Shown here: piece after piece, positions 41,126 through 45,504 of the stretch
Layout: each line of letters begins with the position of its first letter
Position numbering within the stretch: position 1 is the stretch's first letter
NCBI RefSeq assembly: GCF_000012945.1
Contig: NC_007511.1
Coordinates: forward strand, 1,364,001 to 1,428,000
Length of the DNA stretch: 64,000 nt
DNA from: Burkholderia lata
Lineage (GTDB): Bacteria; Pseudomonadota; Gammaproteobacteria; Burkholderiales; Burkholderiaceae
Reading direction: 5' to 3'
Notes under the pieces: generated by a model
What the model saw: only the letters and a program-made list of their open reading frames with translations
Databases searched by the model: none
What the model was told of the DNA's origin: nothing
Program-made: the position numbers and the translations under genes

Positions 41126-42022
41126 TTAGCGCGCCGCCGCTTCCTCCGACAAGAACGCAACGAACTCCCGCGTGTACTTCGGCAGCGCATCGAACGACCG
41201 CGCGCACAGCTTCAGCCTGCGGTGGCTCCACGCGTCGGACAGCTCGACGAGCCGCACGTCCATTGTCTGCATTGCGCGCTCGGCCGCATGGCGCGACACG
41301 ATGCCGATACCCACGCCGCTCGCGATCACGCGGCAGATCGCATCGAAACTCTTCAGTTGCACGCGATAGCGGATCCGCTTGCCGAGCGCGCGCGCCTGGT
41401 CGGCGAGATGCACCTGCAGTGCGCTGCCGTCGGTGAGGCCGATGAAGTCGGCATCGGCGATCGAGTCGAACGCGACCGTGCCGTGCGACGCGAGCGGATG
41501 CCCGGCCGGCACGACGACGATCAGCCAGTCCTCGCGGAACGGCTTCTGTTCGAGCCCACCGAGCCCGACCGAATCGGCGACGATGCCGACCTCGGCCGTC
41601 TTGTTGCGGATCGCATGCACGATCTCCTGGCTCGAACGCTCCTCGACGCTGATCGACAGCTTCGGATGAAGCGGCAGGTAGTCGGCCAGCGCGTCGGGCA
41701 GGTATTCGCTGAGCGACGCCGTGTTGCACAGCAGCCGGATATGCCCGCGCAGCCCCTGGCCGTATTGCTGCAGCTCGCCGCGCATGTGGTCGATCTGCTG
41801 CAGCACGGTGCGCGCGTGGTGTTCGAGCGCGCGGCCCGCATCGGTTGCCTGCGCGCCCGACTTGGTCCGGTGCAGCAGCGGCACGCCGAGCTCGTCCTCC
41901 ATGCCGCGGATGCGCTCGCTCGCGGCCTGCAGCGTGATGTGGGTCCGCTCGGCGCCGCTCGTGATCGTGCCGGCCTCGCAGATGTTCAGGAAGAGCCGCA
42001 GGTCGGTCAGGTCGAAGCGCAT
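41126..42022 (-). CDS. LysR-family transcriptional regulator
   Basis: A 298-residue LysR regulator starting MRFDLTDLRLFLNICEAGTI, with the helix-turn-helix about residues 16-40 (ERTHITLQAASERIRGMED). The effector domain contains IASGVGIGIVSRHAA. An ATG at 42022 was chosen; the longer frame has a Pro/Arg-rich leader. It is divergent from the small membrane ORF and the LysM/M23 gene; a regulatory link is not evident. Confidence 0.92.
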   Translation of the reverse strand: MRFDLTDLRLFLNICEAGTITSGAERTHITLQAASERIRGMEDELGVPLLHRTKSGAQATDAGRALEHHARTVLQQIDHMRGELQQYGQGLRGHIRLLCNTASLSEYLPDALADYLPLHPKLSISVEERSSQEIVHAIRNKTAEVGIVADSVGLGGLEQKPFREDWLIVVVPAGHPLASHGTVAFDSIADADFIGLTDGSALQVHLADQARALGKRIRYRVQLKSFDAICRVIASGVGIGIVSRHAAERAMQTMDVRLVELSDAWSHRRLKLCARSFDALPKYTREFVAFLSEEAAAR

Positions 42023-42174
42023 GATGGGGGGCGATCGTATTGGAATGGCCGATAAGTTAGCAGGGAATGGCCGCCGAGGTCTCAGGCGCAGCTTGAGGCC
42101 CGATTCGCCGGTTCCGCATTTTCGGGGCGCGATCGATGGCGGATCATGGCCGCACATCAACCGGGGAGCCAGTC

Positions 42175-42285
42175 ATGCAGATCGATTCGTCGTGGGGCGT
42201 GTCGTTCAAGATCGCGTTGCACGTGCTGTTCCTGTGCATCGGCATCGCGTGGGCCTGTTCCGAACTCGCCGCGTGGTTGCGTTGA
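42175..42285 (+). CDS. Small single-pass membrane protein (36 aa)
   Basis: A 36-codon ORF with a good Shine-Dalgarno (GGGGAG) 6-8 bases upstream. The predicted peptide has a short polar N-terminus (MQIDSSWGVSF), one hydrophobic helix of about 18 residues (IALHVLFLCIGIAWACS) and a C-terminal ELAAWLR, a clear one-helix membrane protein. It is not similar to any family I recognise and is easily missed by length cut-offs. It is divergent from the LysR gene at 41126-42022. Confidence 0.6.
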   Translation: MQIDSSWGVSFKIALHVLFLCIGIAWACSELAAWLR

Positions 42286-42554
42286 ACGTTGCGGCGGGCG
42301 CGCGCCGTCGTGGGCGGCGGGCGCCGCTTTGCACCTATTGAAACAAATTCGTCATAGTGTCTTGAGACGAAAATTCTTCCGCTTTCCTGCAAAAAGACCA
42401 TCAAGTTTTTCTGAATCGGACCGTATTACCGGTAGCGAATGCCGGCCGGCATCCGGTTCGTGATCGTTTGTCATCATTGTTTGCATCCGGTTACACGTCG
42501 GCCGTTCCGTTTTTGAGATGCTTGAAAGATTGTCAAACCGGAGTCGGATCGTCC

Positions 42555-43415
42555 ATGAAAACGCGCGAGATTCACCGCAACGCGGCGTGGCTGCCAGGCT
42601 TGGCAGCCGTGCTCGTCATGGCCGGTTGTGCAAGCACGCAGTCCGTCCCGCCGAGCGACACGCAGGCGGGACCGTCATTGTCGCCGAGTCAGCCCACTGC
42701 TGCGCCGTCAGCCGCCACCCCGCCGCCGGCGCCGATTCTCGTCGCGCAGAAGTACGTCGTGAAGCGTGGCGACACGCTGACGGGCATCGCGTCCGCGAAC
42801 GGTTGCAGCATTGCCGACCTGCGCACCTGGAACAAGCTGGGTGCGAACGGCAGGCTGCGCATGGGGCAGGTGCTGCGCATCGTCAAGCAGCAACCGTTGC
42901 CGCCACCGGGCGCGGCCGGCACGCAGATGGCCGCATCGCCGGCGTCGAGCAATGACGCAGGGAGCAACGCGGCAACCGCGCAGACCACCGCGTCGAACGC
43001 GAGCGACCGACAGGTCGTCAAGGAAACGAAGCGGCATGCCGGCGGTGTCGCGCTCAAGTGGCCCGCGAGCGGCAAGATCGTCGACGGGTTCCGGCCGGGG
43101 CAGAACCGCGGCATCCAGATCGCCGGCCGGCCGGGCGACCCGGTCCGCGCCGCGGCCGACGGCCGCGTGATGTACGCGGGCACCGGCCTGAACGATTACG
43201 GCAGCCTGATCATCGTCCAGCACAACGCGGATTTCCTGACTGCCTATGCGCACAATCGCAAGCTGCTCGTGAAGACGGGCGACATCGTGCGCCAGGGCGA
43301 CGAGATCGCCGAGATGGGCGACCTCGACAACTCGCGTGTCGCGCTGCTGTTCGAAGTGCGGCGCGACGGCAAGCCGGTCAATCCGATGCCGTATCTGCCT
43401 TCGTCGCAAGGGTGA
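42555..43415 (+). CDS. LysM/M23 lipoprotein (NlpD/EnvC-like, degenerate peptidase)
   Basis: A 286-residue outer-membrane lipoprotein with signal peptide and lipobox VMAGC (Cys near residue 25) and a Ser/Pro-rich linker. A LysM repeat follows (YVVKRGDTLTGIASANGCS, about residues 65-110), then a C-terminal M23/LytM domain from about 180. The zinc-site motifs HxGxD and HxH are altered (RGIQIAG and LFEVR), so it is probably not a peptidase but an amidase activator, as NlpD and EnvC are. The ATG at 42555 is set by the signal peptide. Confidence 0.88.
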   Translation: MKTREIHRNAAWLPGLAAVLVMAGCASTQSVPPSDTQAGPSLSPSQPTAAPSAATPPPAPILVAQKYVVKRGDTLTGIASANGCSIADLRTWNKLGANGRLRMGQVLRIVKQQPLPPPGAAGTQMAASPASSNDAGSNAATAQTTASNASDRQVVKETKRHAGGVALKWPASGKIVDGFRPGQNRGIQIAGRPGDPVRAAADGRVMYAGTGLNDYGSLIIVQHNADFLTAYAHNRKLLVKTGDIVRQGDEIAEMGDLDNSRVALLFEVRRDGKPVNPMPYLPSSQG

Positions 43416-43625
43416 AGCAGGGCCGTTTCGCTGGAACGTGGCGGCGGTCGCTGCTACGCTAGGGTCTGTTCATGCGAGTCCCGCGCTTCGCGGGGCCGAC
43501 GGTCGTCTTTCGGGGATGCGCGGCGTATGCCGTCGCGAGCCGGCCGCCGGCGTGAACGGGCGCGCTTCTTCAGGGCGCGCCCGCGTTGCTTCGTGCCACC
43601 GATTCCGACAGAACACACCACATTC

Positions 43626-44525
43626 ATGGAACACTCTCCGACACGCCGCTCGCTGTTGCTTGCCGCCGTTGCCGCGCCGTTCGTCGCCGCGTGCACGTCC
43701 GCGCCGGTCGCCGACCAAGGGCGCGCCCATACTGCCCAGGCTGAATTGACTGCGCTCGAGAAGGCCTCGAATGGCCGGCTCGGCGTTGCCGCGCTCGATA
43801 CGTCGAACGGCGTGCGCATCGCACACCATGCACGCGAGCGCTTCCCGCTGTGCGGCACGTATGCGGTCGTCGCGGCTGCCGCGATGCTCGCGCGCGGCTC
43901 GCTCGACGCGTCGCTGCTGCCGCGCCGCATCCTGTACCGCCGCTATGAAATCGTGTCGGGCTCGCCGATCACGGAAAGCCACGTCGACACGGGCATGACG
44001 ATCGAGCAGCTGTGCGTCGCGATGCTGCAGTCCGGCGACAAGGGCGCCGGCAACCTGCTGATGGGCGTGCTCGGCGGCCCGCAGGCCGTCACGTCGTTCG
44101 CGCGAGCGAGCGGCGCCACGTCGTTCCGCCTCGATCACTGGGAACCCGAACTGAACAACGCGGCGCCGGGCGACGAACGCGATACCTCGACACCGGTCGA
44201 GATGGTCGACACGCTGCAGCGGCTGCTGCTCGGCAACACGCTGCAGGAGCCGCAGCGCGCGCAACTGACGGAATGGATGGTCGGCGGCGCGCGCGGCGCG
44301 ACCGGCATCGCGGCGGGTGTGCCGTCCGGCTGGCGCATCGCGGACAAGGCCGGCACGGGCGGTTACGGCACGACGACCGACATCGCGGTGCTGTGGCCGC
44401 CGTCGCGTGCACCGATCGTGCTGGCGGTGTCGTTCACGCAGCCGCAGGCCGGTGCGGCGGCCCGCGCGGATGTCGTCGCGTCGGCGGCGCGCATCGTGGC
44501 GGGCGCGCTTACCGCGACGGCCTGA
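43626..44525 (+). CDS. Class A beta-lactamase homologue with degenerate active site
   Basis: A 299-residue Pen-type class A fold. A twin-arginine-like lipoprotein signal is present (TRRSLLLAA, VAAC lipobox at Cys23). The family backbone is intact: WEPELN with Glu173 (Ambler 166) and Asn177 (170), and GTGGYGTTTD at the C-terminal strand. The catalytic motif that should read STFK reads GTYA (residues 77-80), removing Ser70 and Lys73. SDN is SGD (136-138) and KTG is KAG (241-243). It therefore cannot form the acyl-enzyme. The next gene encodes a GcvA/AmpR-type LysR protein on the same strand. Binding or sensing of beta-lactams or muropeptides is possible; a decayed enzyme is the alternative. Confidence 0.88.
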   Translation: MEHSPTRRSLLLAAVAAPFVAACTSAPVADQGRAHTAQAELTALEKASNGRLGVAALDTSNGVRIAHHARERFPLCGTYAVVAAAAMLARGSLDASLLPRRILYRRYEIVSGSPITESHVDTGMTIEQLCVAMLQSGDKGAGNLLMGVLGGPQAVTSFARASGATSFRLDHWEPELNNAAPGDERDTSTPVEMVDTLQRLLLGNTLQEPQRAQLTEWMVGGARGATGIAAGVPSGWRIADKAGTGGYGTTTDIAVLWPPSRAPIVLAVSFTQPQAGAAARADVVASAARIVAGALTATA

Positions 44526-44631
44526 GCGTTCCGCGCCTCGCGCAAAGCCGTCGTTTGGCTTATCGTGTCGGACAGCGCGCGCCGGGGTCGGCGCGCGGTC
44601 CTTCCGCGCCGTTTTTCCGATTGCCTTTTTC

Positions 44632-45504
44632 ATGCGCCGACTTCCGCCCCTGCACGCGCTGCAGATCTTCTCGACGGTGGCTCGCCACCGCAGCTTCACG
44701 CGCGCGGCCGAGCAGCTGTGCATCACGCAGGGCGCGGTAAGCCGGCAGATCCAGACGCTCGAGGCGCATTACGGCTTCCCGCTGTTCAAGCGGCATGCGA
44801 AGGGCCTCACGCTGACGGCGGAGGGCGAGCAGTTGCTGCCGGTCGTCAACGAGAGCTTCGCGCGGATCGAAGATATTTCGATGAGGCTCACGCGGCAGCG
44901 CACCGATCTCGCGCTGAAGGTGCCGACCTGCGTGATGCGCTGGATGCTGCCGCGCATCATGCGGTTCCAGGGCGAGCATCCCGATCTCCATGTGCAGATC
45001 ACGACCGCGTGGCAGCACGTCGTCGATTTCTCGACCGAGCCGTTCGATGCGGCGGTCGTCTACGGCACGTCGCCGGGCGCCGGCGTGTTCGCGCTGCCGC
45101 TGTTCGACGAGCGGCTGACGCCCGTCTGCGCGCCCGAGTTGCGGCAGACGTCGCCGCTCGACTCGGTGGGCGATCTCGCGCGTCATACGTTGCTGCATCC
45201 GACCCGCGACCATCGCGACTGGCGCGCGTGGCTCGATCACGCAGGCGAGCGCAGCGTCGATCCCGCGCGCGGGCCGACGTTCGACACGCTCGATCTCGCG
45301 ACGAATGCGGCGATGCAGGGCTTCGGCGTCGCGATCGGCGATGTGACGCTCGTCGACGACGACGTCAGTGCGCGCCGGCTCGAGCGCCCGTTCGACATCG
45401 TGCTCGAGACGGGCGCGCGCTATTTCTTCGTCTACCCCGAGAACATCGGCAACCAGCAGAAGATCCGCGCATTCAGCGACTGGATCGCGCGCCATCGCGA
45501 TTGA
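44632..45504 (+). CDS. LysR-family regulator, GcvA/AmpR-like
   Basis: A 290-residue LysR regulator starting MRRLPPLHALQIFSTVARH, with RSFTRAAEQLCITQGAVSRQIQ as helix-turn-helix (about residues 19-40) and PLFKRHAKGLTLT. This N-terminus is that of the GcvA/AmpR/PenR subgroup. AmpR and PenR normally regulate a divergent beta-lactamase gene, whereas here the beta-lactamase homologue lies upstream on the same strand (107-bp gap), so the classical shared promoter is absent. Confidence 0.9.
   Translation: MRRLPPLHALQIFSTVARHRSFTRAAEQLCITQGAVSRQIQTLEAHYGFPLFKRHAKGLTLTAEGEQLLPVVNESFARIEDISMRLTRQRTDLALKVPTCVMRWMLPRIMRFQGEHPDLHVQITTAWQHVVDFSTEPFDAAVVYGTSPGAGVFALPLFDERLTPVCAPELRQTSPLDSVGDLARHTLLHPTRDHRDWRAWLDHAGERSVDPARGPTFDTLDLATNAAMQGFGVAIGDVTLVDDDVSARRLERPFDIVLETGARYFFVYPENIGNQQKIRAFSDWIARHRD

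Follow-up and report, generated by a model that had tools for sequence, protein, structure and literature searches.

PenA*, a class A β-lactamase homologue without its catalytic residues, is kept under purifying selection beside nlpD1 in Burkholderia

The window, a 64,000-nucleotide stretch of Burkholderia lata DNA, contains an open reading frame for a 299-aa protein, with the lipoprotein gene nlpD1 directly upstream and a LysR-type gene directly downstream on the same strand (Table 1). The protein was assigned to the class A β-lactamases by Pfam (PF13354, 2.8e-31) and passed the general class A profile of NCBIfam (NF033103) with 286 bits against a cut-off of 200. The best NCBIfam profile was PEN-Bpc, where its 349 bits were far under the cut-off of 580. 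The closest solved structures, 5ihv_A and 5hx9_A, aligned without gaps at E 2.5e-147 or better and have the same GTYA and GDK. These close homologues support the prediction that the class A fold is kept. 5IHV, classed as an inactive β-lactamase in PMC12073871, shares LCGTYA, GDK and KAG with the window protein and differs in being the crystal structure of a related species' protein, that of B. ambifaria.

The gene is penA*, the orthologue of the motif-intact PenA found at the same nlpD1 locus in the B. pseudomallei group. PenA* has already been published: PMC7157819 describes it as the inactive homologue of B. pseudomallei-complex PenA, reports that SxxK, SDN and Y105 are missing and that EXXLN, the Tat motif and the lipobox are kept in five species, and credits a note on PenA* in B. 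multivorans to its reference 23, Becka et al. 2018. The window gene is another copy of the PenA* that PMC7157819 describes for the B. cepacia complex, which sits at the same locus with nlpD1 and also keeps K(T/R/A)G. It has nlpD1 directly upstream on the same strand, SxxK, SDN and Y105 lost with EXXLN kept, a Tat motif and a lipobox with a non-Asp residue at +2, and PenB in the same genome. Here we extend the description to 65 Burkholderia genomes and add the losses R220G and D240G to those in PMC7157819.

Table 1. Positions within the window of penA*, its neighbours and its sequence features; counts are for PenA* orthologues unless another group is named
Feature	Position	Strand	Remarks
LysR-like ORF upstream of nlpD1, conserved neighbour	41126..42160	-	named by look and after PMC6045580; start provisional
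nlpD1, LysM and LytM/M23 lipoprotein, upstream neighbour	42558..43415	+	Pfam PF01476, PF01551; best PDB match EnvC
Stem-loop, attenuator-like, in the nlpD1-penA* gap	43557..43583	+	12 pairs, formed in 91.8% of cells; both sides changed in 34 cells; 44 genomes
penA* (inactive PenA homologue), 299 aa	43626..44525	+	uninterrupted ORF; name after PMC7157819
Tat motif RRSLL to lipobox VAAC, Cys23 (predicted lipoprotein)	43644..43694	+	RRxhh and lipobox in 53/53
GTYA for STFK (S70G, K73A), residues 77-80	43854..43865	+	G70 51/53, A70 2/53; A73 52/53, T73 1/53
Y105G	43959..43961	+	G105 51/53
SGDK for YSDN (S130G, N132K), residues 136-139	44031..44042	+	G130 50/53; K132 50/53
WEPELN, kept omega loop (E166, N170), residues 172-177	44139..44156	+	E166 53/53; N170 52/53
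R220G, carboxylate-binding arginine lost	44304..44306	+	G220 53/53; R in 53/53 PenB and 9/9 motif-intact PenA
KAG for KTG (K234 kept, T235A), residues 241-243	44346..44354	+	K234 47/53; A235 38/53
Terminator-like hairpin with T run in the penA*-LysR gap (weak)	44593..44609	+	3 found vs 2.2 expected in the scanned region
GcvA-like LysR regulator, downstream neighbour	44632..45504	+	GcvA profile 273.7 bits, just under the cut-off of 288

By sequence family the protein belongs to class A and it has E166 and N170, while the enzyme motifs S70-x-x-K73, S130-D-N132 and K234-T-G are all broken. The Ambler numbers of these motifs agree with those used in PMC7157819. Among the 53 PenA* orthologues collected, S70, K73, S130 and R220 are absent from every one and E166 is present in every one. 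An earlier sequence-only reading of this DNA had noted GTYA at residues 77-80 and KAG for KTG, both of which the ORF translation confirmed. It had also held that the catalytic serine and lysines were lost, which is right for S70 and K73 and wrong for K234, a residue that is kept here and is missing in only 6/53 orthologues. Its reading of SDN as SGD was one residue out of register: S136-G137-D138-K139 aligns with Y-S-D-N, giving S130G, a kept D131 and N132K, with Lys or Arg at position 132 in 52/53 orthologues. The retained signal sequence, WEPELN loop and fold that it described are borne out by the export signals, by E166 and by the solved homologues, and the lipobox +2 residue is T, S or A in all 53 orthologues. 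The loss had been called scattered; it is instead a state shared by the whole clade (53/53), and so neither chance nor a sequencing error.

The loss also reaches further than the earlier reading had noted. PenA* has glycine at positions 105 (51/53), 220 (53/53) and 240 (51/53), where motif-intact enzymes mostly have Tyr, Arg and Asp; motif-intact, and hence "active", was judged from sequence. In all, PenA* differs from the motif-intact enzymes in a fixed or almost fixed manner at 16 sites, eight of which (S70G, K73A, Y105G, S130G, N132K, T167P, R220G and D240G) are on our pocket list of 54 sites. In the consensus, these eight differences and smaller ones at 104, 216 and 235 amount, going by residue volumes, to a net loss of about 400 cubic angstroms in side chains over 20 near-pocket positions, and K132 and R216 are added near the pocket. 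This loss of volume should open the cleft. R220 and S130 help to hold the substrate carboxylate. With acylation and carboxylate anchoring both removed, penicillin binding of the normal type would not be expected.

To follow PenA* through the genus, we surveyed 65 Burkholderia genomes, one per species, taking 62% identity or more as an orthologue. PenA* is carried by 53 of them, with the frame open in all 53 and lengths of 297 to 304 aa, and all 53 also have a motif-intact PenB. Nine other genomes (G014, G015, G017, G020, G027, G035, G038, G042 and G050) have a motif-intact STFK/SDN/KTG gene with an NlpD-type gene upstream; this is the PenA of the B. pseudomallei group (PEN-Bpc), and the gene of G035 passes the PEN-Bpc profile with 645 bits against 580. 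No PenB was found in these nine genomes among matches at E 1e-30 or better. In G024 and G052 the nlpD1 locus has no bla gene and a PenR-linked enzyme lies elsewhere. PenA* was not found in the draft genome G057 (82% complete), which has PenB, PenR and a fragment of nlpD1 at a contig edge. In a scan of named genomes, where loci are similarity matches only, 22 Burkholderia loci were found, including those of B. cepacia, B. cenocepacia, B. lata, B. metallica and B. dolosa.

A protein database search gave 485 matches. Among the best 120 of them listed, 27 clusters had 62% identity or more, and all 27 representatives were without S70, K73 and S130; the clusters comprise 975 member sequences by table sum, with motifs read from the representatives only. 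The other 93 matches listed, all more distant, have S70, K73 and S130. One of the representatives (P0029) is partial and another (P0022, one member) changes frame after about residue 225. STFK thus occurred in none of the 53 genomes and none of the 27 representatives, as the earlier reading of a lasting rather than a recent change implied, with the frame shift of P0022 as the point against.

The descent of PenA* was examined in a tree made by a quick method, with the active-site columns and the signal part masked, from 26 of the 53 PenA* rows, 18 of the 53 PenB rows, the nine motif-intact PenA rows and the PenR-linked genes of G024 and G052. The 26 PenA* rows formed one clade (SH-aLRT 99) beside the nine motif-intact PenA rows from the nlpD1 locus (91). 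PenA of the B. pseudomallei group is therefore a sister clade at the same locus, differing by active-site motifs that are intact in 9/9. The 18 PenB rows clustered together (98) apart from PenA*, and the genes of G024 and G052 fell outside the PenB clade. Independent losses of the catalytic residues are ruled out by the single PenA* clade, and the co-occurrence with PenB accordingly amounts to about one evolutionary event rather than 53. Outside the genus, S70 and K73 are kept in all 20 relatives fetched, two of which, both of one other genus, have an NlpD-type gene upstream, so the linkage of nlpD and bla is probably older than the residue loss. PenB (PEN-Bcc) is of the same superfamily and genome as PenA* and differs in its intact motifs, its divergent PenR, its locus and its clade. 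The PenB of this genome (C3:868434-869369) has 53% identity to PenA* over the match and scores 598 against a PEN-Bcc cut-off of 540. The two most divergent PenA* proteins (L053 and L054, of G040 and G016) come from genomes of 5.5-5.8 Mb, which have a PenB-type gene without a PenR match at E 1e-70.

Selection was estimated as dN/dS (NG86) over genome pairs with dS 0.1-0.8; such pairs are not independent, and we therefore give medians and ratios only. The median dN/dS was 0.227 for PenA*, 0.328 for PenB, 0.335 for nlpD1 and 0.107 for the downstream LysR gene. In 1307 matched genome pairs the median was 0.230 for PenA* compared to 0.330 for PenB, and PenA* exceeded PenB in 254. Over the mature core, the ratio of means was 0.280 compared to 0.310, or 0.261 compared to 0.309 without G016 and G040. 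PenA* is thus under purifying selection, of about the same strength as that on the PenB enzyme with which it shares its cells. A recent pseudogene is ruled out by the 53 open frames and the low dN/dS, and the single TGA flagged in the G040 match is that gene's own stop. These frames and the core dN/dS of about 0.26-0.28 agree with the earlier suggestion of a repurposed scaffold rather than random decay. The pattern of conservation within the protein is different from that of PenB. Invariant core sites number 91/256 in PenA* and 101/256 in PenB, and mean entropy is 0.447 compared to 0.230 at the 54 pocket sites and 0.415 compared to 0.484 at the other 202. The pocket dN/dS is 0.226 in PenA* and 0.189 in PenB, and that of the omega loop is 0.150 and 0.069. 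Constraint has moved, and the special conservation of the pocket is gone in PenA*; this argues against the former active site holding a demanding ligand.

The linkage to nlpD1 is general: nlpD1 lies upstream of penA* in all 52 genomes whose contig extends far enough, and 9/9 motif-intact PenA loci have an NlpD-type match upstream. For nlpD1 we chose the ATG at 42558 as the start; the ORF list has a TTG at 42468. Active LytM domains hold zinc through HxxxD and HxH. At the presumed places of these ligands, NlpD1 has RGIQIAG (51/52) and LLFEVR (50/52). In having a LytM domain without zinc ligands, NlpD1 agrees with amidase activators of the NlpD/EnvC type. Together with the dead PenA*, the degenerate LytM domain means that the operon seems to encode two pseudoenzymes. 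NlpD1 of B. pseudomallei is likewise degenerate at the zinc-ligand sites, and an nlpD1-penA operon with an attenuator has been shown in that species (PMC6045580); the nlpD1 arrangement is conserved in the B. cepacia complex according to PMC7157819.

The gap between nlpD1 and penA* holds a stem-loop that is kept by compensatory changes, in a position comparable to that of the B. pseudomallei penA attenuator. Neither any of 500 shuffles nor any of six slid versions gave as many as its 34 two-sided changes. Six pairs carry a two-sided change, a count equalled in 78/500 shuffles; for the remaining four measures this happened in 0 to 4. Because the 12 pairs were picked by eye in these very sequences, the test is biased in their favour, and it excludes nine divergent genomes whose upstream could not be aligned (G010, G016, G021, G040, G047, G048, G059, G062 and G063). 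This aligned test replaced an earlier scan for the strongest hairpin over 220 bases, which was noisy from competing GC-rich hairpins. The stem-loop could serve nlpD1 alone. No sigma-70-type promoter was found in a scan of 42200-44800. By our own loose rule, a terminator-like element follows penA* in 21/51 genomes, two genomes being unscored.

Functional data come from B. ubonensis (PMC7157819). Meropenem, imipenem and ceftazidime did not induce penA* there, and the MICs of all four drugs tested were unchanged in a penA* deletion mutant. Expressed in E. coli, the B. ubonensis protein allowed no growth on ampicillin and had no nitrocefin activity. The same paper states that the reason for bacterial retention of PenA* is not known.

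Taking these observations together, we favour an explanation that is probably right as a whole: PenA* would be a non-catalytic envelope lipoprotein in the context of NlpD1. Its catalytic residues were lost once, before the divergence of the 53 carrier genomes, all of which hold motif-intact PenB. PenA* lacks the nucleophile, general base and carboxylate clamp of the enzyme, while the omega loop, the export signals and, by the solved homologues, the fold are kept. As a lipoprotein of the envelope, most likely of the outer membrane, PenA* would then act without catalysis, by binding a piece of peptidoglycan or a periplasmic protein, and its role would be set in the cell-wall remodelling of NlpD1. 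The non-catalytic binding role is likely, though by no means certain. A purely muropeptide-binding role without acylation may also be considered. The link to NlpD1 and amidase control is more tentative, being possible rather than probable. The linkage probably predates the residue loss and may be chance: nlpD1 stands without bla in two genomes, and nlpD1 and penL, the penA orthologue, respond differently in B. thailandensis, where penL has its own promoter (PMC9426598). More speculative again, and on balance doubtful, is the idea that nlpD1 and penA* form a two-pseudoenzyme module whose products are both outer-membrane lipoproteins. The β-lactamase scaffold would have been turned a single time, as PenB took over resistance, into a regulator or ligand-binding component of cell-wall splitting that is under selection and non-catalytic.

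The earlier reading had also proposed that PenA* forms a β-lactam- or muropeptide-sensing pair with the adjacent LysR gene. That gene is present as described, GcvA-like and on the same strand, and it lies directly downstream in 53/53 PenA* genomes. Its family is near GcvA with a weaker similarity to PenR, which is what could recommend it as a partner. Acylation-type β-lactam sensors such as BlaR1 and MecR1 need Ser-x-x-Lys, and in PenA* the acylation residues and the carboxylate clamp are gone in 53/53. The LysR gene also does not fit a PenR/AmpR-type regulator with its lactamase: it lies downstream on the same strand, unlike the divergent PenR-PenB arrangement, and it scores 170.8 bits on the PenR profile NF041130 (cut-off 625), whereas the true PenR of this genome, divergent from PenB at another locus, scores 653.7. 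Across the genus, LysR also accompanies a motif-intact bla at 6/9 loci and stands without any bla at 2/2 (L240 and L241, of G024 and G052, about 118 bases after nlpD1 with no bla gene between); at the other 3/9 motif-intact PenA loci it was not found within the fetched ~4-5 kb on either side. A LysR gene present whether bla is dead, intact or absent is more what one would expect of a neighbour than of a partner. When the two LysR genes flanking the B. pseudomallei locus, one before nlpD1 and one after penA, were deleted, penA was expressed as before and susceptibility to PenA substrates did not change (PMC6045580). With the non-induction and unchanged MICs of B. ubonensis (PMC7157819), these results make a sensor working with the LysR gene highly improbable.

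The remaining alternatives bear on why the protein is kept. PenA* could have acquired a new catalysis, in which the E166/N170 water site with K132 and K234 acts on another substrate in an enlarged cleft. The near invariance of E166, N170 and K/R132 and the volume removed near the pocket suit this reading; the absence of a nucleophile at 70, the six orthologues without K234, and a pocket less conserved than that of PenB, with its higher omega-loop dN/dS, do not, and we regard it as unlikely. Slow decay under selection relaxed once PenB took over, with the frame open by inertia, would account for PenB in every PenA* genome, for the lost extra constraint on the pocket and for the frameshifted P0022. 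It is hard to reconcile with frames open down to 62% identity, export signals intact in 53/53, and a dN/dS that is far under 1 and not above that of PenB, and is very improbable. Hardly more credible than the sensor is that penA* is a structural or regulatory appendix of nlpD1, such as a transcript or an attenuator, kept for something other than its protein: the compensatory stem-loop between the genes speaks for it, and the selection on amino acids and the conserved export signals speak against it. The measured selection indicates that the protein itself is kept, not only its DNA.

Because the residues were lost a single time and a motif-intact sister clade occupies the same locus, PenA* is a clean natural example of an enzyme becoming a pseudoenzyme. 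It also matters for annotation. Since PenA* is automatically named a class A β-lactamase (it passes NF033103, and NCBI names follow), counts of resistance genes in the B. cepacia complex can be inflated.

More distant relatives were met in the same searches. The named-genome scan gave 30 loci in other genera at 38-42% identity, again as similarity matches only. A second match in G014 belongs to a third, distant class A-like family (L107-L111, 36-39% identity, five genomes) that keeps STFK and SDN and has R-P-G for K-T-G. Another relative (L131, of G065), whose 2.4 Mb genome belongs to the same bacterial family, keeps STFK and has YGDN and RTG for YSDN and KTG; these changes are perhaps another step towards inactivity.
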